Positions 10,161 to 18,150 of a stretch of 64,000 bases of DNA are shown here, piece by piece (position 1 is the first letter of the stretch; the number at the start of each line of letters is the position of its first letter). The notes beneath the pieces are model-generated. The model saw only the letters and a program-made list of their open reading frames with translations. It was not told the DNA's origin and searched no databases. The position numbers and the translations under genes were made by a program. Source of the DNA: Eudoraea chungangensis (GTDB taxonomy: Bacteria > Bacteroidota > Bacteroidia > Flavobacteriales > Flavobacteriaceae); the NCBI RefSeq assembly GCF_029360665.1, contig NZ_JARDUB010000003.1:186001-250000 (forward strand), read 5' to 3'.

Positions 10161-10187
10161 AAATAAAGAGCATTATGCTCTTTATTT
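10161..10187. terminator. Perfect 12-bp hairpin terminator after DUF1254 gene
   Basis: Starting directly after the TAG stop, AAATAAAGAGCA (10161-10172) pairs perfectly with TGCTCTTTATTT (10176-10187) around the loop TTA. The A-rich and T-rich flanks make it terminator-like on both strands. Confidence 0.75.
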
Positions 10188-10222
10188 CAGAGTTGTGTTT
10201 CATTATAACCAACCGCTAACTT

Positions 10223-10981
10223 ATGATAAAATTCTTTAGAAAAATTAGACAAGATTTACTTTCCAAAGGAAAAACAATAAAGTATTTCAAATATGCAATT
10301 GGAGAGATTTTTCTTGTCGTTATTGGGATTTTGATTGCGTTGTGGTTAAACAACCTTAATCAAGTGAGTAATAAAAACCAAGAAAGGCAAAAGTTAAAAA
10401 TATCGTTGATTAAAGAATTACGGGAAAATAGAAATTCATTCAGTAACTATAAAAATTATGTAAATGAGTGTAATAAGAAAAACATAATAATTTTAAATAT
10501 TTCCGCAGGAAAACAAACAGATTTACCCATTGATTCGATTAGAAAATATGTGGTAAATATGTTTCCTATTCGCACTTTGGGATTTAATGAATCAGTTCGT
10601 AAATCAACTAATTCTGCCGGTAAGTTAGATTTATTAACTATGAAAGAAGGTAAAGCAATAGCAGATTATGAATCGAGCGTTGAAAATTATAAAGAAGCAC
10701 GAAAAATAAATACGATTTGGAAAGAAAGTAATAGACAAATGTTTAGTTATTTATCAGTTTTCGAACAGAGAATTAACCAAAACTTAGAAATAAGACTTCC
10801 GAATATGACTTTAGTGAATCACTCTGACTATGACTTGTCAGATAAAGAGTTTATTGATTACTTACAAAACATAGAAACTTACACAAAACTCAAAGATATA
10901 TTTATTAGTACCACAGTTGATATTACCTGGTTAGAATCAATTATTGAAGATATTGATAAAACCATTGAAGTATTACAATAA
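10223..10981 (+). CDS. DUF6090 family membrane-anchored protein, second copy
   Basis: 252 residues, the same length as the copy at 7602. It has the same anchor layout: FFRKIRQDL, KYFKYAIGEIFLVV, IGILIALWLNNLNQ. The soluble part is Asn/Lys/Glu-rich and probably helical. The base composition is visibly more AT-rich than that of the DUF1254 gene before it, which would suit separate acquisition. Downstream lies the first clear copy of the intergenic repeat. Function unknown. Confidence 0.85.
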   Translation: MIKFFRKIRQDLLSKGKTIKYFKYAIGEIFLVVIGILIALWLNNLNQVSNKNQERQKLKISLIKELRENRNSFSNYKNYVNECNKKNIIILNISAGKQTDLPIDSIRKYVVNMFPIRTLGFNESVRKSTNSAGKLDLLTMKEGKAIADYESSVENYKEARKINTIWKESNRQMFSYLSVFEQRINQNLEIRLPNMTLVNHSDYDLSDKEFIDYLQNIETYTKLKDIFISTTVDITWLESIIEDIDKTIEVLQ

Positions 10982-11007
10982 TGGACTCATTAATTAAAAT
11001 AACGAAA

Positions 11008-11147
11008 GCGCAACAATGGCTATAATTAATTGCTTGTTCTCGCCTACTTCTGAAAATCCTCGCGGATTTTCTATTCGGTTTGCATTTGCTAAATTAGCGA
11101 CTTAAAACACCTAACTAAACCTATTCTAGACCGTTGGCATTAATTAT
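11008..11147. repeat. Intergenic hairpin repeat, copy A (best-preserved)
   Basis: This copy lies between the second DUF6090 gene and the sulfatase. ATAATTAAT (11022-11030) and its inverted partner ATTAATTAT (11139-11147) bound the inner part. Inside, GAAAATCC (11052-11059) and GGATTTTC (11064-11071) form a perfect 8-bp stem with loop TCGC. Bases 11027-11058 match 14220-14251 in 30 of 32. Bases 11011-11042 match 15053-15084 in 27 of 32. Bases 11061-11097 match 16051-16087 in 31 of 37. Function unknown. Confidence 0.8.
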
Positions 11148-11164
11148 TCAAATGAATTGAATAT

Positions 11165-12907
11165 ATGAAACAAATAATTTACACAATGATTGCGCTATTC
11201 CTATTAGTAAGTTGCAATCAATCGGAAAAAAAAGAAAATACAGCTCAAACAGAGAAACCATTAAATGTTCTCTTATTGGTTGGAGATGATATAGCTTTTG
11301 GAGATTTGGGTATATATGGATCTGAAATCAAAACTCCAAACTTCGATCGTTTAGCTGATGCAGGAATCCGATTCTCGAATTTTCATGCTTCTCCTGTTTG
11401 TTCTGTAACCCGTTCTATGCTGTTAACAGGATGTAATAATATTGAGATTGGACTGGGATCTTTTGATTACTCGTTTTATCCGGACTCAAAAGGTAAGCCT
11501 GGCTATGAAGGATATTTAACAGACAATGCTGTTGCTATTACACAACTTTTTAAAGACGAAGGTTACGAAGTGTGCAAAGTGGGTAAATGGCATCTAGGCG
11601 GCGAAGCCGCAGGTGGTAGAGGGCCTTTAGAGTGGGGCTTTACCAAAGAATTTGGAATTCTCTCAGGAGGTTCAAACCATTGGAATAACCTGCGGATGAC
11701 ACCAGACTTTAGCGACCCAGACTACATGAATAAAAAATTTGAGGAACATTGGACATTGAATGGAGAAAAATACGAGCGCCCAGAAGGCATTTATTCTGGT
11801 GAATTATACACCAACCAAATGTTAGAATTTATAAAAGCTGCGCAATCACAAGATAAACCATGGTTCTCATACATGGCGTTTACAACTGCCCACTTCCCAA
11901 TTCAGGCACCGCCTGAATTGATTGAAAAACACTATCAGTTTTACCTTGACAAAGGTTATGAAGGCTTGAAGCAATTCCGCTATGAGCGCTTAAAAATGAA
12001 TGGCCTTATTTCAGAGATGGCAGATCCTTCTCCCGAGAATGATCTTGTGAAAAAATGGGCAGAATTAAGTCAGGAGGAAAAAGAATATCAAGCGAAAGTA
12101 TTTGCAACCTATGCGGCAGAAATCGAGGATCAAGACAACAGAATCGGGCAGGTGCTCGATTATCTGAAAGAATCAGGACAGCTTGACAATACATTGATTG
12201 TATATGTTTCAGACAACGGTCCTGAAGGAATGGAAGCCGAAAATCCAAAGACAGGAAATCAAGATTTCGGCAAATGGATTGCAAACAACTATGACACTTC
12301 TTTTGAGGCCATCGGTACGGCAAATTCAAGTAATTACATTGGAACTTCATGGGCTAATGCAGCAACAGGCGGCTTGTCCTGGTGGAAATGGTTTATAGGA
12401 GAAGGTGGTGTTCGTGTTCCTATGGTAATTGTACCTCCAGGTGCCATGAACAACAAATATGAACGAGCCGGCGAGATCAGTAATGTAGTTATGTCTGTGA
12501 AAGACATCCCAATGACTATACTAGATTATGCGGGTATCGCTCATCCTGGAGCCAAGTACAACGGAAAAGATGTTGTGGCACCTACAGGTATAAGTGCTCG
12601 CTCTTTTTTAGATGGCAATACCGACCATGTTAGAACAGATGCAGACTGGTATGCCTTTGAGCTTTTTGGCAATGGGTATTTAATGAAGGGTAACTACAAG
12701 CTTATGAAAGTTCGCAAAGGGATGTTCGGAGACGGAGAATGGCATTTGTATAACGTTGTAGAAGATCCTTCAGAAAGCATACCTTTGGAGGAAGATTTTC
12801 CAGATATGTACAACGAAATGTTGGTATTATATAACGCATATGCAGCTAAACATCAATTGGTCGAAGTTGCCGAAGACTGGAATGCTTTCAAGGCAGCGAG
12901 CGAATAA
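11165..12907 (+). CDS. Arylsulfatase-like lipoprotein with variant CSVTR site
   Basis: 580 residues. Lipobox LLVSC (Cys17) suggests lipoprotein export. The sulfatase core is clear: LLVGDDIAFGDLGIYGSEI with metal-binding Asp residues, VGKWHLG with the catalytic Lys/His, and YVSDNGPEG with the second metal Asp-Asn. The formylglycine site reads CSVTRSMLLTG with Cys79 and Arg83, so Val81 replaces the usual Pro of CxPxR. The rest of the motif is intact, and formylglycine formation is plausible but unproven. It likely removes sulfate from algal polysaccharide or another sulfate ester. A second sulfatase at 26852 has the canonical motif. No anSME or FGE gene is in the window. Confidence 0.88.
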   Translation: MKQIIYTMIALFLLVSCNQSEKKENTAQTEKPLNVLLLVGDDIAFGDLGIYGSEIKTPNFDRLADAGIRFSNFHASPVCSVTRSMLLTGCNNIEIGLGSFDYSFYPDSKGKPGYEGYLTDNAVAITQLFKDEGYEVCKVGKWHLGGEAAGGRGPLEWGFTKEFGILSGGSNHWNNLRMTPDFSDPDYMNKKFEEHWTLNGEKYERPEGIYSGELYTNQMLEFIKAAQSQDKPWFSYMAFTTAHFPIQAPPELIEKHYQFYLDKGYEGLKQFRYERLKMNGLISEMADPSPENDLVKKWAELSQEEKEYQAKVFATYAAEIEDQDNRIGQVLDYLKESGQLDNTLIVYVSDNGPEGMEAENPKTGNQDFGKWIANNYDTSFEAIGTANSSNYIGTSWANAATGGLSWWKWFIGEGGVRVPMVIVPPGAMNNKYERAGEISNVVMSVKDIPMTILDYAGIAHPGAKYNGKDVVAPTGISARSFLDGNTDHVRTDADWYAFELFGNGYLMKGNYKLMKVRKGMFGDGEWHLYNVVEDPSESIPLEEDFPDMYNEMLVLYNAYAAKHQLVEVAEDWNAFKAASE

Positions 12908-13443
12908 ACCTTATTTGGGAAATAAAGAAAGTAGATTTAATAAGTGCGTTTTTTTGATTCTGACGGCTTGTGAAAATCATAATAAGGAAACTGAGAAAAG
13001 AAAAATCTGAAATAGATATGTCTCATTGGTACGTGTAGCAAACCCACATTGCTCTTTCAAATGCTAAAAAGGTCTGTGGTGAACTACAAATACACTATAC
13101 GCCTGCGGAACGTTTTGTAAACACTAATTACAATAAAAATGGGGTTAACGGAAAAAGGGTTAAACGCTTGTTTTTTATTGGCAACTGGATTTAAAGATAA
13201 TGAGGATGACTCCCAGAATTATAAAAAAGCTAAAACGAATCGACACAATATTTGAGAAGATAAACTAGTACTAGTAAAGAATATCTTCCTACAACAAGGT
13301 ATAAAAGCAATAGCGGTGTGGATAGACTTAAACTATTTTTTCTGTTAAATTACGTGTATTACATATCACTAATAAGTGCGTATAATAGGCTACTACTTTT
13401 ATACAAACCGCTATATACAAACACAAATGAATCGTATTAAAAG
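12908..13443 (+). pseudogene. Gap with decayed coding remnants
   Basis: No intact gene is seen. From ~12921 a frame reads NKCVFLILTACENHNKETEKRKI before a stop near 13010. That looks like the end of a lipoprotein signal peptide (LTAC lipobox) with no start and no mature domain. Further short open pieces follow at ~13040-13195 (including CGELQIHYTPAERFVNTN) and ~13195-13255. I read this as a graveyard of one or two genes, but the pieces are too short to name. Confidence 0.35.
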
Positions 13444-14187
13444 ATGAAAATTATGAAACTAAATTATTTTACCTTGAGCCTAATATTAATTCTTGGGTTT
13501 ACGTCGTGCAGTGATAGTGAAGATTCAACACCAGACCCCGTAACATCAGCGAACATTATTGGATCCGTAAATCTATATGATGAGGGTACTTCACAAATTG
13601 ACAACTCTGGAATGACTGTTAAATTAGAAGACACATCATTTTCAGCTACCACGGATGTTCAGGGCGATTTTACTTTGACAAATGTACCCTTTGGAACCTA
13701 TACAATCATTTATGAAAAAGCAGGATTTGGAACATATAAAAAATTTGATCTAAAACATTCGAATACAAGTTCGTCAACCATTATTACAGAAACGCCGTCA
13801 ATAGGACAAATGTCTTCGACAGAGATTACCAATATAGCAGTTACCTCAAATACAAGTAATATAATAATATCTGCAACTACAAATCCTGCAGGAAGTAATG
13901 GTAATACTCGTTATGTTAGATATTTTCTTTCCGAAAATGCAGACGTCAGTAATGAAAACTACAATTTTTATTCACAAGGGCTTATTTCCCAAATAAATCC
14001 TTACGATATTAACTTATCACAAGATGATTTGATTAGTGCTGGCTTTACAACTGGACAAACTATTCATATTAAAGTATATGGCGATTCCTTTTGGAGTAAT
14101 GAATATAACAACCCTAATTTGCAAATAAAAGTTTTTCCAAATTTGAATATGACTTCAACAAGTTCTGTTTCTTTTGTTGTACCTTAA
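13444..14187 (+). CDS. Lipoprotein with carboxypeptidase-regulatory-like domain
   Basis: 247 residues. The signal peptide ends in a lipobox (LGFTSC) and is followed by an acidic Ser/Asp/Glu/Thr linker, the usual surface-lipoprotein export context in Bacteroidota. Residues ~38-105 form a CarboxypepD_reg-like beta-sandwich: IIGSVNLYDEG, TTDVQGDFTLTNVPFGTYTI, EKAGFGTYKKF. The C-terminal half (~120-247) is beta-rich with Asn/Ser/Thr and could be a second sandwich domain. No enzyme motif is present. ATG 13453 is an equally possible start (three residues shorter). It sits as a single gene between a decayed gap and repeat copy B. Confidence 0.75.
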   Translation: MKIMKLNYFTLSLILILGFTSCSDSEDSTPDPVTSANIIGSVNLYDEGTSQIDNSGMTVKLEDTSFSATTDVQGDFTLTNVPFGTYTIIYEKAGFGTYKKFDLKHSNTSSSTIITETPSIGQMSSTEITNIAVTSNTSNIIISATTNPAGSNGNTRYVRYFLSENADVSNENYNFYSQGLISQINPYDINLSQDDLISAGFTTGQTIHIKVYGDSFWSNEYNNPNLQIKVFPNLNMTSTSSVSFVVP

Positions 14188-14204
14188 ATCAAATATCAGT
14201 AAAT

Positions 14205-14325
14205 AACACAGAATATATGTAATTGCTTGTTCTCTCCTACCTCTGAAAATCAACAAGGATTTCAGCTTGGTGTGTACGTGCAAGTTAACCACTAAATCAC
14301 GCAGCGAAGCATAACCAAACCATTC
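14205..14325. repeat. Intergenic hairpin repeat, copy B
   Basis: Bases 14220-14251 match copy A (11027-11058) in 30 of 32 positions, including TAATTGCTTGTTCTC and TCTGAAAATC. The internal hairpin is weaker here (TGAAAATC with GATTTCA). The 3' part is diverged. It lies between the lipoprotein gene and the DUF4345 gene. Confidence 0.75.
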
Positions 14326-14355
14326 CCCAAAAGCTGGACAAAACGATATAAGAAA

Positions 14356-14745
14356 ATGACTAATGAACGTTTACAGCGATTACTATTGTTCATAGCGGCT
14401 ATAGGATTAATTCCAATTGCTTTAGGCTATGGCTTTTTACCAGAAAAGACGCTAACACCAATTTATGGATTCGATGTTGATAATGTGAATCTAAAACATA
14501 TAATGAGGGCCGTAATGGGACTGTATATTGGTCATGTGATTATTTGGTTTCTCGGAATTTATAATCCTAAATTTAGAAGACCTGCAATGTACTGCTTGGT
14601 TGTATTTATGTTTGGCTTGGCTGGGGGTAGAATTTTAAGTCTTATTGTAGATGGAATTTCACATTGGTTGCTTCTTGTTTATTTACTTTTGGAATTAAGT
14701 ATTGGGCTCTTAGGATTAAAATTGATTATGAATGAAAAAAAATGA
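14356..14745 (+). CDS. DUF4345 family integral membrane protein
   Basis: 129 residues with four predicted membrane helices (approximately residues 8-26, 47-66, 76-94 and 100-122). The sequence matches the DUF4345 layout: ALGYGFLPEKTLTPIYGFDV, then IMRAVMGLYIGHVIIWFLG, and a glycine-rich VFMFGLAGGRILSL. Function unknown. It stands alone, with repeat B upstream and repeat C downstream. Confidence 0.8.
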   Translation: MTNERLQRLLLFIAAIGLIPIALGYGFLPEKTLTPIYGFDVDNVNLKHIMRAVMGLYIGHVIIWFLGIYNPKFRRPAMYCLVVFMFGLAGGRILSLIVDGISHWLLLVYLLLELSIGLLGLKLIMNEKK

Positions 14746-15266
14746 TAAGCCAATAGCTAAAAATGGCTATGCTTAATACGAGGCGTAAGGCCTTCTCAAG
14801 TGCCAGTTTATTCTTGAAACCCTAAACAGCTGCTATTAAAATTAAAGTTTTTATATGTGCATTGGTATTGTTTAAATTAGAATATAAAACACTAAAAACA
14901 GCCAATAAAAACCTTGTTAACTAAGGAAATATAGGACTTCCATCGAAAGGGGTTAAAGTATTCTATTAAGACATAAGGCTTAAATAGATTAAAAACAAAC
15001 CAGTAGAACTTGTAGTTGAAGAATAAAAAGCTTTTATAGAAAACACTTCTATCAACATTGGCCATAAGTAATTGCACGTTCTCGTCTTCCTTGTCTGTAC
15101 CTACAGAGTTAAGTCCTAATCCCCGTAACTTATTATAGCCGATAGCCTTGGTGGAAATATCTCATGTAAATCAAAGCTTTTCCATGCAGTAAGCTAAGTC
15201 GGAAACTGTAACAAATTTGTATTCGCTTTGTCTGTAATACATATCGCAACACTAAATTTCCAAAAT
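14746..15266. other. 521-bp gap containing repeat copy C
   Basis: No gene is supported. The short minus-strand frame at 14892-15077 is low-complexity and overlaps the repeat, so I do not accept it. Just after the DUF4345 stop, bases near 14755-14775 can form a weak hairpin (ATAGC with GGCTAT). The right-hand part near 15177-15208 shares CCATGCA followed by TAAG with 26764-26795. Confidence 0.5.
15052..15091. repeat. Intergenic hairpin repeat, copy C (5' part)
   Basis: Bases 15053-15084 match copy A 11011-11042 in 27 of 32 positions (CAACATTGGCCATAAGTAAT, then TGCACGTTCTCG). The similarity fades after ~15090, so the 3' part is lost or highly diverged. It lies between the DUF4345 and DUF1028 genes. 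Confidence 0.65.
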
Positions 15267-15977
15267 ATGAAGAAAATAGAAATCTCTGTTTTAATACTAC
15301 TAACTTCACTATTTTCTACACAATGCTATGCTACCTGGTCTATTATTGCCGTTGACAGAAAAACGGGAGAAATTGGAATTGCAGGTGCTTCATGTACTTT
15401 TGATGTATCCGGAATTGCGTCTATCGAACCTGAAAAAGGTGCCATTGTAGTGCAAGCAGCAAGTAATTATTTTGCTCGGATGAAAGGAGTCTCGCTTATG
15501 GAAAACAATGCTTCCGCACAAGAAATATTGAATGCTATGAAAGAAAAACGTTTCGAACCAGAACAGCAGCAATATGGTGTAATATTATTGAAAGAAGGTA
15601 CAAGCCCTTTGGTATATTCCGGAACTGAAATTGCGGATTGGAACGGTCAAATGATTGGGGAAGATTTTGCAGTTATGGGAAATATACTTTTGGGGGAACA
15701 GGTTGTTAAAAAAGCCTTTGATGCCTTTAATCAAAATAGGGATAAATCTTTAGCTGAGCGCTTAATGCTTGCACTCAAAGCTGGAGAAGAAAATGGCGGA
15801 GATAAAAGGTGCAAAACACAATATGCAAGATCCGCTTTTATAATGGTATACAAACCCGAAAATGGAGCTATTCTAAAGCTAGCGGTTCAAGGTTTAAAAA
15901 AGGGAGGTAAACCCGCTGTAACAATGCTAAATAAACAATTTGATTTTTGGCGCAAAGAAGAAAAAGGCAAAGGTTAA
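15267..15977 (+). CDS. DUF1028 exported Ntn-hydrolase-like protein
   Basis: The frame opens at 15228, but a signal peptide begins at the internal ATG 15267 (MKKIEISVLILLTSLFSTQ), so this start is preferred, giving 236 residues. After the predicted cleavage comes TWSIIAVDRKTGEIGIAGAS, the diagnostic DUF1028 N terminus. This family has an Ntn-hydrolase-like fold, with the residue after processing a possible nucleophile. VVQAASNYFARMKGVSLM and the terminal DFWRKEE region complete the domain. The substrate is unknown. The flanking gaps carry repeats C and D. Confidence 0.82.
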   Translation: MKKIEISVLILLTSLFSTQCYATWSIIAVDRKTGEIGIAGASCTFDVSGIASIEPEKGAIVVQAASNYFARMKGVSLMENNASAQEILNAMKEKRFEPEQQQYGVILLKEGTSPLVYSGTEIADWNGQMIGEDFAVMGNILLGEQVVKKAFDAFNQNRDKSLAERLMLALKAGEENGGDKRCKTQYARSAFIMVYKPENGAILKLAVQGLKKGGKPAVTMLNKQFDFWRKEEKGKG

Positions 15978-15985
15978 AAACTACC

Positions 15986-16115
15986 GCCAACACCCTGTAT
16001 ATTCATTACTACTACTCAATTACATACGTAACCCGATAGTTATCGTAACTCTCGGATTTTCCATTCGGTATGTATTTGGTAATTTAGTTCCCGAATCACC
16101 TAACGAAGTCAGATA
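15986..16115. repeat. Intergenic hairpin repeat, copy D
   Basis: Bases 16051-16087 match copy A 11061-11097 in 31 of 37 positions (CGGATTTTC then ATTCGGT). The following CACCTAACGAAG recalls CACCTAACTAAAC in copy A. The hairpin position holds CGATA/TATCG (16034-16045). Thus copy D preserves the 3' half where copies B and C preserve the 5' half. It lies between the DUF1028 and S9 peptidase genes. Confidence 0.7.
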
Positions 16116-16158
16116 CATGAGCTTTAGTGGTCATTATCAATTTCTAAATCATCACAAA

Positions 16159-18150
16159 ATGAAAAACCTAAAACTAACACCCCTACTAACATTTTGCGCT
16201 TTAATAATTTTTGTTGTTCCAAACTTCAATAAAGTTTTAGCCCAATCTTCTAATCTTACACTTGAACACTTTGACGTGGCAGTCAGTCTGAGTAGCCCGA
16301 GGATTAGTCCTGATGGAAAGAAAATATTACTTATCGTTAGAAAAGCTGACTTTGAAAAAAATGAATACATCAATACATTATGGATGGTTAATAAAAGTAC
16401 AAAAGAAGCTACGCCACTTACCTACAATAGACCTTCCGTAAATTTGCCAGAATGGTCTCAAAATGGCCAGCATATAACGTTCTTGGCTAAAGGGAACAAT
16501 GAGAAACGACAAATTTTTACGCTGCCAGTGCATGGGGGGGAAGCCCAACAGATAACGAATAGTAAAATGGGGGTCATTACCTACAAGTTGAGCCCAGATG
16601 GTCATTTATTTGCTTTTGTTCAAAAGGACTCTTTAGAAGAAAAAAAAGGAATTGAAAAGCACAACAAATCCTTCGAAGTTGGCAATGATTGGTATTTGGC
16701 GAAAGAGGCGGCAGTGGCATCGCACATTTGGATTTGTTCCAATGAAGGTAAAAATGAATATCAGTTAACATCAGGAGAAGTTGGATACAACAATTTTACT
16801 GGAAGCTTTAATTGGTCTTTTGATAGTAAAGAATTAGTTTATATCGAACAGCCCAAACCACATTCAGGTGCGTTTTTAAACAGTTCATTACAACTAATAA
16901 ATTTAGAATCTAAGAAAGCTATTACGCTAGACAAAGGTCCTGGCGTACCGACAAATCCCTCTTTTTCAAGAGATGGGTCTACTATTTTATATAGCAAATC
17001 CATGGGAAAAGAACCATTTTTTAATCCTCACGGACTATTTTCGGTTAGTGCTAATGGCGTTAAAAATGACAATATAATTCTCGATATCGATCGTGATATT
17101 TTCAGTCATCTCTCGTTTTCTGACCAGAGTTTCCTAGTCGGAGCTCCCGATAAAACTAAAGTAAGCTTATGGAAGGGGCAACTAGACGGCAATTATAAGA
17201 GTCTCAATACAAATGGAGTTATTCCATCACTTAACAATATGGATATAGGACAATCTGATGAAATTGTATTTATCGGTTCTACCTCAAGCGAAGCATCAGA
17301 ATTGTATTACATGAAAGATTATAGTAGCATTCCAGAAAAGATTACTTCATTTAATGATACTATTTCACAATTAAATTTAGGTAAAGTTAGTTCCGTAAAT
17401 TGGAAAGGTGAGGACGGCTTTTACGAAGATGGGGTAATCACCTATCCACCTGATTTTTCATCAAATAGAAAATACCCCTTGGTGTTATACATCCATGGAG
17501 GACCTATGGGCTCTTCGATAGAAAGCTTTAATTTCTTTGCTCAAGCTCTGGCCGCAAAGGGATGGATTGTTTTCCAGCCTAACTACAGAGGCAGTAACAA
17601 TCTGGGCAAAGCATATCAAAGTTCGGTTATTAACGATGCTGGTGAAGGACCAGGAAAAGATGTTATGGCGGGAGTTAAAGCGGTTAAGGAATTGGGTTTT
17701 ATTGATGAAAGTAAAATCGCCGTGTCTGGATGGTCTTATGGCGGCTTCATGACTGTTTGGCTTACCTCTCATTTTCAAGGATGGAAAGCAGCTGTTGCCG
17801 GAGCTGCTGTTACAGACTGGTTTGATTGGTATAATATGGCAGATTTGAATGTATGGTCTGGCTATGGTCTGGGTGGTTCACCATGGCTTAATGATAATGC
17901 TGAAAATTATCGCAGGCAATCACCAATAACCTATGCACACCAAATTAAAACCCCTACCTTGATTCTATCTAATACGTTGGATCAAAGAGTAACAGTTACG
18001 CAATCCTTTAAATTATTTCACAACTTAAAGGACAATGGCGTGGAAACAAAATTTATCGCCTATCCAATTCCAGGTCATTTTCCACAAGATCCGGTACATA
18101 GAAAAGATGTCTACAAGCAGTGGATATCATGGATAGCACATCATTTTTAA
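16159..18150 (+). CDS. S9 family (prolyl oligopeptidase-like) peptidase, exported
   Basis: The open frame reaches back to 15940, but the first 73 codons run through repeat D. The ATG at 16159 starts a signal peptide (MKNLKLTPLLTFCALIIFVV ... VLAQ), giving 663 residues. Residues ~30-400 are WD40/TolB-like propeller repeats (SPDGKKILLIV, LSPDGHLFAFV, FSRDGSTILYS). The C-terminal alpha/beta-hydrolase has LYIHGGP, nucleophile Ser526 in GWSYGGF, Asp608 in NTLDQRV and His640 in PGHFP. This is the dipeptidyl/acylaminoacyl peptidase type acting on small peptides in the periplasm. An imperfect hairpin follows the stop. Confidence 0.88.
   Translation: MKNLKLTPLLTFCALIIFVVPNFNKVLAQSSNLTLEHFDVAVSLSSPRISPDGKKILLIVRKADFEKNEYINTLWMVNKSTKEATPLTYNRPSVNLPEWSQNGQHITFLAKGNNEKRQIFTLPVHGGEAQQITNSKMGVITYKLSPDGHLFAFVQKDSLEEKKGIEKHNKSFEVGNDWYLAKEAAVASHIWICSNEGKNEYQLTSGEVGYNNFTGSFNWSFDSKELVYIEQPKPHSGAFLNSSLQLINLESKKAITLDKGPGVPTNPSFSRDGSTILYSKSMGKEPFFNPHGLFSVSANGVKNDNIILDIDRDIFSHLSFSDQSFLVGAPDKTKVSLWKGQLDGNYKSLNTNGVIPSLNNMDIGQSDEIVFIGSTSSEASELYYMKDYSSIPEKITSFNDTISQLNLGKVSSVNWKGEDGFYEDGVITYPPDFSSNRKYPLVLYIHGGPMGSSIESFNFFAQALAAKGWIVFQPNYRGSNNLGKAYQSSVINDAGEGPGKDVMAGVKAVKELGFIDESKIAVSGWSYGGFMTVWLTSHFQGWKAAVAGAAVTDWFDWYNMADLNVWSGYGLGGSPWLNDNAENYRRQSPITYAHQIKTPTLILSNTLDQRVTVTQSFKLFHNLKDNGVETKFIAYPIPGHFPQDPVHRKDVYKQWISWIAHHF

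Follow-up and report, generated by a model that had tools for sequence, protein, structure and literature searches.

The window, a 64-kb stretch of the Eudoraea chungangensis genome, contains a run of genes on the + strand whose intergenic gaps carry copies of one imperfect repeat (Table 1). The initial annotation had described four such copies, A to D, and compared them with the joints of a cassette array. All four are real, and the identity counts given for them were exact when recounted (A/B 30/32, A/C 27/32, A/D 31/37); elsewhere in the window, neither strand matches copy A at 24/32 or more ungapped positions. A fifth copy, however, had been missed. We searched with a covariance model, R1, of 77 sites that came from relatives and, for seven, from the genome's other array; no window site entered the model, and a single intragenic false positive among its 77 rows was retained. 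On the window, R1 gave five sites at E<1, all in the same orientation, and the next match had E=5, E-values that are rough because the calibration was short.

Table 1. Genes, repeat sites and putative cassette boundary in the window
Feature	Position	Strand	Remarks
Perfect hairpin, 14-bp arms, just before first putative cassette start	10161..10189	.	Upstream gene's terminator or attI-like palindrome
Putative start of first window cassette, GTTGTGTTTCAT	10192..10203	+	Fits GTTNNNNNN[AC]AT
ORF, 252 aa, possible cassette gene	10223..10981	+	No Pfam hit
Site A	11003..11144	- (bottom strand, the modelled strand)	R1 63.6 bits, E=2.8e-11; AAC 11012, GTT 11133
Sulfatase gene (PF00884)	11165..12907	+	Pfam match
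Fifth site, between sulfatase and lipoprotein genes	13284..13421	-	R1 55.8 bits, E=1.1e-9; AAC 13293
Lipoprotein-like gene, carboxypeptidase-regulatory domain	13444..14187	+	Cassette start and end boxes match 5/6
Site B, degraded right end	14196..14333	-	R1 30.8 bits, E=1.7e-4
DUF4345 gene	14356..14745	+	
Site C, degraded	15045..15158	-	R1 27.4 bits, E=8.4e-4
DUF1028 gene	15267..15977	+	
Site D, degraded right end	15980..16134	-	R1 29.8 bits, E=2.7e-4
S9 peptidase gene, after last site	16159..18150	+	

Copy A does contain the 8-bp hairpin GAAAATCC/GGATTTTC and the inverted pair ATAATTAAT/ATTAATTAT. However, the hairpin and AT-rich terminal repeats stressed at first are incidental, and the conserved parts lie elsewhere, namely in a terminal AAC...GTT, the asymmetric spacers and the TATA-bearing long arm. 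A BLAST search of the genome with copy A returned five places at E<0.01, copy A itself included, which would suggest a low-copy element; this was rejected, as a structure-aware search of the same genome gave 24 sites at E<=1. A left end like that of the fifth site recurs in the genome's main array. Rfam returned no match to the sites on the window stretch, only three chance eukaryotic hits, all below cut-offs.

The window array is a decayed outlier that lacks an integrase; PF00589 was unmatched in the 64 kb, in agreement with the initial annotation. Most of our counts are restricted to sites within 112-128 bp (210 of 256), or of 114-126 bp with a score of at least 10.5 (191 or 193). A sequence-free hairpin scan, which does recover the sites of relatives, gave none of the five window sites in the size class applied, owing to damage in their arms; outside the main array, 144 kb of the window genome (both strands of the window, L029 and L034-L036) yielded five hits of such size, and the window sites are not among these. 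The hairpin upstream of the first putative cassette lies 3 nt from the GTT, compared with 5-6 nt at the clear attI-like sites of relatives, and the six nucleotides of the start box agree with those closing the cassette at site A at only 4 of 6 positions, so that this start is decayed or doubtful. Box matching in the window reaches 5/6 in one step and 4, 1, 1 and 4 of 6 in the others; the single 5/6 step, at 5.9% per unrelated pair, would not be telling alone. Synteny of the window array, probed with three flanking proteins in the two closest genomes, gave nothing usable.

Cassette units in relatives and in the main array

In relatives, arrays of sites follow an integrase, and the anticipated pattern of mostly single genes in one orientation is borne out: 154 of 185 cassettes hold a single co-oriented ORF, and among 193 cassettes the longest ORF runs along the cassette in 182 and against it in 3, with none of 40 aa in 8. 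The proposed proximity to a tyrosine recombinase was also found. In an R1 neighbourhood test of 30 named loci out of 80, 14 loci had hits, all 61 on one strand and 60 of them downstream; R1 found nothing at the other 16 loci, which have related recombinases and include 11 from Bacteroidota. A further count placed 41 of 41 near sites downstream of the recombinase. The window genome's main array likewise lies directly downstream of a tyrosine recombinase, about 500 kb from the window.

The cassettes themselves are marked by paired boxes. A cassette starts with GTT and six variable nucleotides and ends with their complement and AAC, with at least 5/6 complementary in 159 of 175 cassettes, compared with 129 of 2194 unrelated pairs (5.9%); of 17 steps in the main array, seven match perfectly and two reach 5/6. 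Such complementarity is expected if the cassette was once a circle with a complete site. Cassettes repeat within arrays, with unit edges at GTT, and a few are common to different genomes. Most of their cargo is of unknown function and some genes are defence-like, in a scan of 143 of 169 ORFs from relatives, the window genome's own ORFs being excluded; seven of the first 150 were dropped by hand (short, duplicate or antisense), as were the last 19.

These units weigh on two other explanations. Repeated imperfect palindromes in intergenic gaps are also what a non-autonomous mobile element (MITE or REP-like) inserting between genes would leave, but here the ends vary with the gene between two sites and not with the site, in place of constant terminal repeats; orientation is strict and not blind; and the repeated unit is gene plus site with edges at GTT. 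The probability that such an element accounts for the repeats is very low. The sites also fold and sit close behind stop codons (median 134 bp from stop codon to site end, the sites being ~121 bp), as a regulatory RNA, attenuator or terminator at the genes' 3' end might. We consider this extremely improbable, because the best-folding strand is opposite to the genes, Rfam found no site in three array loci (60 kb in total; one tRNA only), and the cassette-linked boxes would be left unexplained.

From these sequence patterns, the repeats are very probably attC-like recombination sites belonging to a gene-cassette system of integron-like type in Bacteroidota. Those in the window look like decayed joints of this system, which is common in relatives and whose recombinase and sites differ from those of known integrons. 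Orientation, linkage and cassette units thus uphold the cassette interpretation first proposed, although the system is not a canonical integron, the genome's integrase is interrupted and lies 500 kb from the window, and the array in the window has decayed.

Site folding and proposed mechanism

The sites of relatives are ~121-bp imperfect inverted repeats whose predicted folding is better on the bottom strand in 177 of 193 cases; the predicted bottom-strand fold leaves a spacer unpaired between the box and the stem, as in integrons. A wobble asymmetry of 597 to 59, together with compensatory pairs, points to one folded strand. This evidence argues against a cassette system whose sites recombine as double-stranded DNA, like dif, rather than as folded single strands. 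Such a variant is unlikely, even though the integrase is nearest XerA by sequence and nearest XerA, IntI4 and XerH by structure, and the attI-like palindrome resembles a double-stranded site. Of 193 sites, 98 have an extra base on the R' arm and 21 on the R'' arm. Canonical attC sites are described as having extra-helical bases on the R''-L'' arm, and in a V. cholerae site moving these bases to the opposite arm changed strand choice (PMC2727003), a difference that counts against our reading of the sites.

In 17 of 26 arrays of the clade, the integrase has an attI-like GTT with a matching barcode next to it; no barcode-matched attI was found in the other nine, two of which have no site on the contig. 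The palindrome before this GTT is strong in 12 of the 17 and weak or absent in five, as it is in three arrays of other integrase groups, and could partly be a terminator. By eye, it is mostly without a GC-rich stem or T run.

By sequence, the layout is an integrase, followed on its 3' side in most traceable arrays by an attI-like palindrome and GTT, and then tandem cassettes, each mostly one ORF with an imperfect inverted repeat and closed by complementary boxes. With folded-strand recombination as the preferred reading, we infer that the integrase would recognise the bottom strand of a site folded as single-stranded DNA, cut at GTT and excise cassettes as circles, which may be inserted either at the attI-like site or at another one; genes would therefore be shuffled, duplicated and traded. 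The window genome holds one integrase of the clade, that of the main array, ~510 kb off, with a stop codon at the position of the catalytic Tyr, a residue present in 29 of 29 copies from relatives. Its integrase gene is thus interrupted at the catalytic codon, and the window array is a decaying cluster with no integrase nearby.

Relation to integrons and Xer recombinases

The system resembles sedentary chromosomal integrons (IntI, attI and attC, as in the Vibrio superintegron) in its attI-like site beside the integrase, its tandem co-oriented one-gene cassettes, its attC-like bottom-strand fold with an AAC/GTT core and a G after the bottom-strand AAC, and its cargo. In integrons, too, start and end boxes are complementary within a cassette. 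This shared logic could suggest a canonical integron whose members have merely diverged; NCBIfam TIGR02249 does align to ten array-type integrases, with scores of 179-219 bits over one or two segments, and a true IntI array (Pseudoalteromonas, L166) has two box-closed pairs in the identical test. Nevertheless, all ten scores lie below the cut-off of 265, compared with 404 and 373 bits for two IntI controls, and no IntI exceeded the cut-off in 199 genomes. The KGxKxR-HxLRH stretch spans 64-70 residues in 13 Bacteroidota integrases (that of L125, not measurable, is not among them) against 87 and 106 in two IntI, and the insertion stretch has 19 residues against 62 in IntI4. The IntI-specific insertion is therefore absent from the measured integrases. 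Integron R boxes have the consensus RYYYAAC/GTTRRRY; both together occur in 0 of 191 sites, with GTTRRRY alone in 4 and RYYYAAC in 5. Insertion, TIGR02249 score and R boxes refute canonical membership, leaving mere divergence very improbable. The system is integron-like in its working, yet lies outside the canonical class.

Integron integrases are distinguished by this insertion (PMC9668308), although one classification describes it as not fully conserved within its integron-like subgroup (PMC8138268). Other differences concern the boxes (GTT, six variable nucleotides and [AC]AT), the arm carrying the extra unpaired base, and gene direction. The integrase gene reads towards the array, whereas in integrons it usually reads the opposite way. 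With its five sites, the window array corresponds to a CALIN, an attC cluster lacking an integrase (at least two attC-like sites, no integrase nearby), but its sites are not canonical attC. The integrase is a Xer-like tyrosine recombinase; unlike XerA and XerH, it has an extra N-terminal part and is linked to arrays and an attI-like site, not dif. A tree of 47 recombinases did not resolve the backbone and is compatible with a common as well as with a separate origin from IntI.

Distribution and significance

Sites were found in 223 of 249 genomes of the window's family, in a survey that scored only 10-12 candidates per genome, so that sites per genome are lower bounds; among 20 genomes outside Bacteroidota, none had sites. 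A close integrase of the clade is present in 43 of the 249, and thus many of the genomes with sites must be served by other integrase groups, unless their sites are relics. For Bacteroidetes proper, a survey of complete genomes lists a single complete integron, that of Salinibacter ruber, and calls the absence of integrons from some clades intriguing (PMC9024848). The cassette system may have been overlooked, plausibly because search tools require the IntI-specific domain (PMC9668308) and canonical attC.

We tentatively raise the possibility, which we hold at somewhat less than even confidence, of a second, independently built integron in Bacteroidota, in which a Xer-like recombinase that lacks the IntI domain arrived by convergence at hairpin-guided cassette capture with its own attI/attC grammar, near-universal in the window's family and perhaps among the commonest bacterial cassette platforms. 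The system is also a natural test case for identifying the integrase parts that recombination of hairpin sites requires. If it works as we infer, a major gene-shuffling engine of Bacteroidota would have been overlooked.

Repeat sites in the window and across the genome

The initial annotation had described four repeat copies in the window, with copy A matching B, C and D at 30/32, 27/32 and 31/37 positions. These identities are exactly as stated, as are the intervening genes (sulfatase, lipoprotein-like, DUF4345, DUF1028 and S9 peptidase). All four copies are real; their number requires correction, because R1, a covariance model built from 77 sites with none from the window, recovers five co-oriented sites spanning about 5 kb. 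A BLAST search of the 3.73-Mb genome with copy A gives five places at E<0.01, copy A itself counted. Two places on C3 (704387 and 705082) show the full site anatomy, in the order AAC, short spacer, long arm, variable middle, complementary arm, longer spacer and GTT. At E<=1, R1 finds 24 places genome-wide: 18 within C3:669-707 kb, where the main array lies, four of the five window sites (site C is absent) and two solitary sites on other contigs, which look as if single cassettes had been inserted or left behind elsewhere. The cassette logic of the initial annotation is right, and the system is larger than it had supposed.

Features of the proposed cassette system outside the window array
Feature	Location	Strand	R1 E-value	Remark
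Tyrosine recombinase	C3:708716-709195	-		PF00589 match, directly upstream of the C3 site cluster
Solitary site	C1:733557-733697		3.7e-5	Far from both arrays
Solitary site	C2:181645-181784		0.08	Far from both arrays

Cassette boundaries and the fold of the site

A hairpin scan, in which both wobble directions were scored alike, covered 402 kb downstream of 20 related integrases and in this genome's own array. It returned 256 sites, 1 to 26 per region and 210 of them 112-128 bp long, compared with 35 sites (5 of that length) in a first-order Markov control of equal length. The GTT is followed by six variable bases and then usually [AC]AT, and six bases complementary to this box precede the AAC with which the following site begins. 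When a small shift in register is allowed, neighbouring boxes match at >=5/6 positions in 159/175 pairs (149 perfect), compared with 14/210 for the box pair within a single site and 129/2194 for unrelated boxes within an array; without the shift, 133/175 neighbouring pairs are perfect, against 7/210 and 36/2194. Since neighbouring pairs lie so far above both controls, the box sequences indicate that a box goes with its cassette rather than with the site, as would be the case had every cassette once been a circle with one whole site. The initial annotation had pictured single genes in one orientation, and this largely holds: the longest ORF is co-directional in 182 of 193 box-closed cassettes and opposed in three, 154/185 cassettes carry exactly one forward ORF of at least 60 aa, and 8/193 have no ORF of 40 aa. 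The median distance from GTT to start codon is 28.5 bp.

Arm mismatches in the 210 sites comprise 597 bottom-strand G.T wobbles versus 59 on the top strand. Among 77 aligned non-redundant sites, 13 of 19 pairs show compensatory changes (e.g., UA 58/GC 19; GC 34/AU 25/CG 16), and fold predictions made with DNA parameters favour the bottom strand in 177/193 sites (top 14, ties 2). The site is therefore modelled as folding on the bottom strand. A G directly follows the bottom-strand AAC in 73/77 rows, as it does in most canonical attC sites (PMC2727003). In contrast to the canonical extra-helical bases, which that source places on the R''-L'' arm, the extra unpaired base here lies mostly on the R' arm (98/193 sites; R'' arm, 21/193). 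A short site class of about 41-64 bp, found in a Rufibacter locus (L101) and on C3, carries boxes of this kind too, which suggests that a site can do without its middle part.

Integrases, attI-like sites and distribution

A PF00589 search of the genome found seven tyrosine recombinases. The frame of the C3 integrase stops with TAA, known from one assembly and possibly an error, at the codon of the catalytic Tyr, a residue kept in 29/29 relatives' copies. The main array retains 7/17 perfect box steps and two more at 5/6. In the window array, steps counted from a putative start at 10192 match at 4, 1, 5, 1 and 4 of 6 bases; only the lipoprotein cassette closes at 5/6, which alone could be chance. 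Because the only integrase of its clade in the genome is interrupted, the window array is interpreted here as an outlying part of the system that is in decay. It may stem from insertion at secondary sites, from the break-up of a single array or from another process. The stretch of about 375 bp that separates the sulfatase from the fifth site (12908-13283) lacks an ORF of 80 aa and is perhaps a lost cassette.

An attI-like GTT, followed by six bases that match an early cassette's end, occurs 39-107 bp past the integrase stop in 16/21 family-set arrays and 1/5 named arrays of the same integrase clade; in this genome it lies 91 bp past the early stop. An inverted repeat with 9-12-bp arms ends 5-6 nt before the GTT in 12 of these 17 sites, matched by 0/200 shuffles in each, and is weak or absent in the other five, including that of this genome. 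Other integrase groups have such a GTT at 95-300 bp in 3/5 loci tried, with the inverted repeat weak or absent in all three.

The initial annotation had suggested searching this genome and its relatives with a profile, and looking for a nearby tyrosine recombinase. In 30 of 80 named loci around related recombinases, R1 at E<=0.1 gave 61 hits in 14 loci. Every hit is on the bottom strand, and all but one of the 61 lie downstream of the recombinase. The 14 loci include Winogradskyella ursingii, Seonamhaeicola aphaedonensis, Algibacter onchidii, Flavobacterium enshiense, F. aciduliphilum, Algoriphagus ornithinivorans, Aquiflexum, Rufibacter and Pontibacter; the 16 loci with no hit at this threshold include 11 from Bacteroidota, several on short contigs. 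At E<=0.001, hits occur in 223/249 genomes of the window's family, which the nearest named relatives suggest is Flavobacteriaceae (195/210 good ones; 16 of the 20 listed genomes without hits are <2 Mb), in 118/296 genomes of the phylum, and in 0/20 genomes of other phyla in a test that found 3/3 Bacteroidota positives. Fifty-seven sites share a contig with a listed integrase, 16 of them more than 60 kb away; all 41 within 60 kb are downstream and on the bottom strand, beside 24 integrases of two subfamilies. Six draft contigs (L038, L040, L043, L046, L060 and L066) stop about 200-260 bp past the integrase match, as if array repeats had broken their assembly, and further arrays may be hidden in draft genomes. 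Integrase relatives with 39-48% identity occur on plasmids of Chryseobacterium, Flagellimonas and Arenibacter (records H4, H7, H10 and H11).

Shared cassettes, cargo and relation to integrons

Fifteen near-full-length cassette pairs were found. Twelve are repeated within an array, nine of them at 99.7-100% identity; these come from single assemblies and may include assembly errors. Three are common to different genomes (96, 88 and 87% identity). In the 12 pairs whose edges were inspected, similarity ends at GTT wherever neighbours differ; it runs on across the inner edge of two-cassette block repeats, and the alike flanks of the L069 and L085 pairs make their edges uninformative. The L069 array (G168:C1) holds a 2380-bp unit in two 100% identical box-closed copies, and a 103-bp hairpin is present there five times with the same arms. 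The 88% identical cassette is common to arrays beside two different integrase subfamilies (L068/L109), hinting that both read the same site.

The 143 cassette proteins scanned contain 53 Pfam families; among the 25 listed, most occur once, with DUF6090 recurring six times and DMP19 and DUF6843 three times each. Defence-like Pfam families, such as AbiEii, a CAP12/Pycsar TIR and SLATT_5, appear once each, in agreement with single PADLOC hits.

A full-text literature search, with preprints and most subscription papers outside its reach, found no description of such a system, and a word search found "Bacteroid-" and "Flavobacter-" absent from the main texts of PMC8352920 and PMC7370490. By the tests run, the system falls outside the canonical integron family. 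As no recombination was observed, its mechanism is read from anatomy: it works like an integron, and each cassette would once have been a circle holding one complete site.
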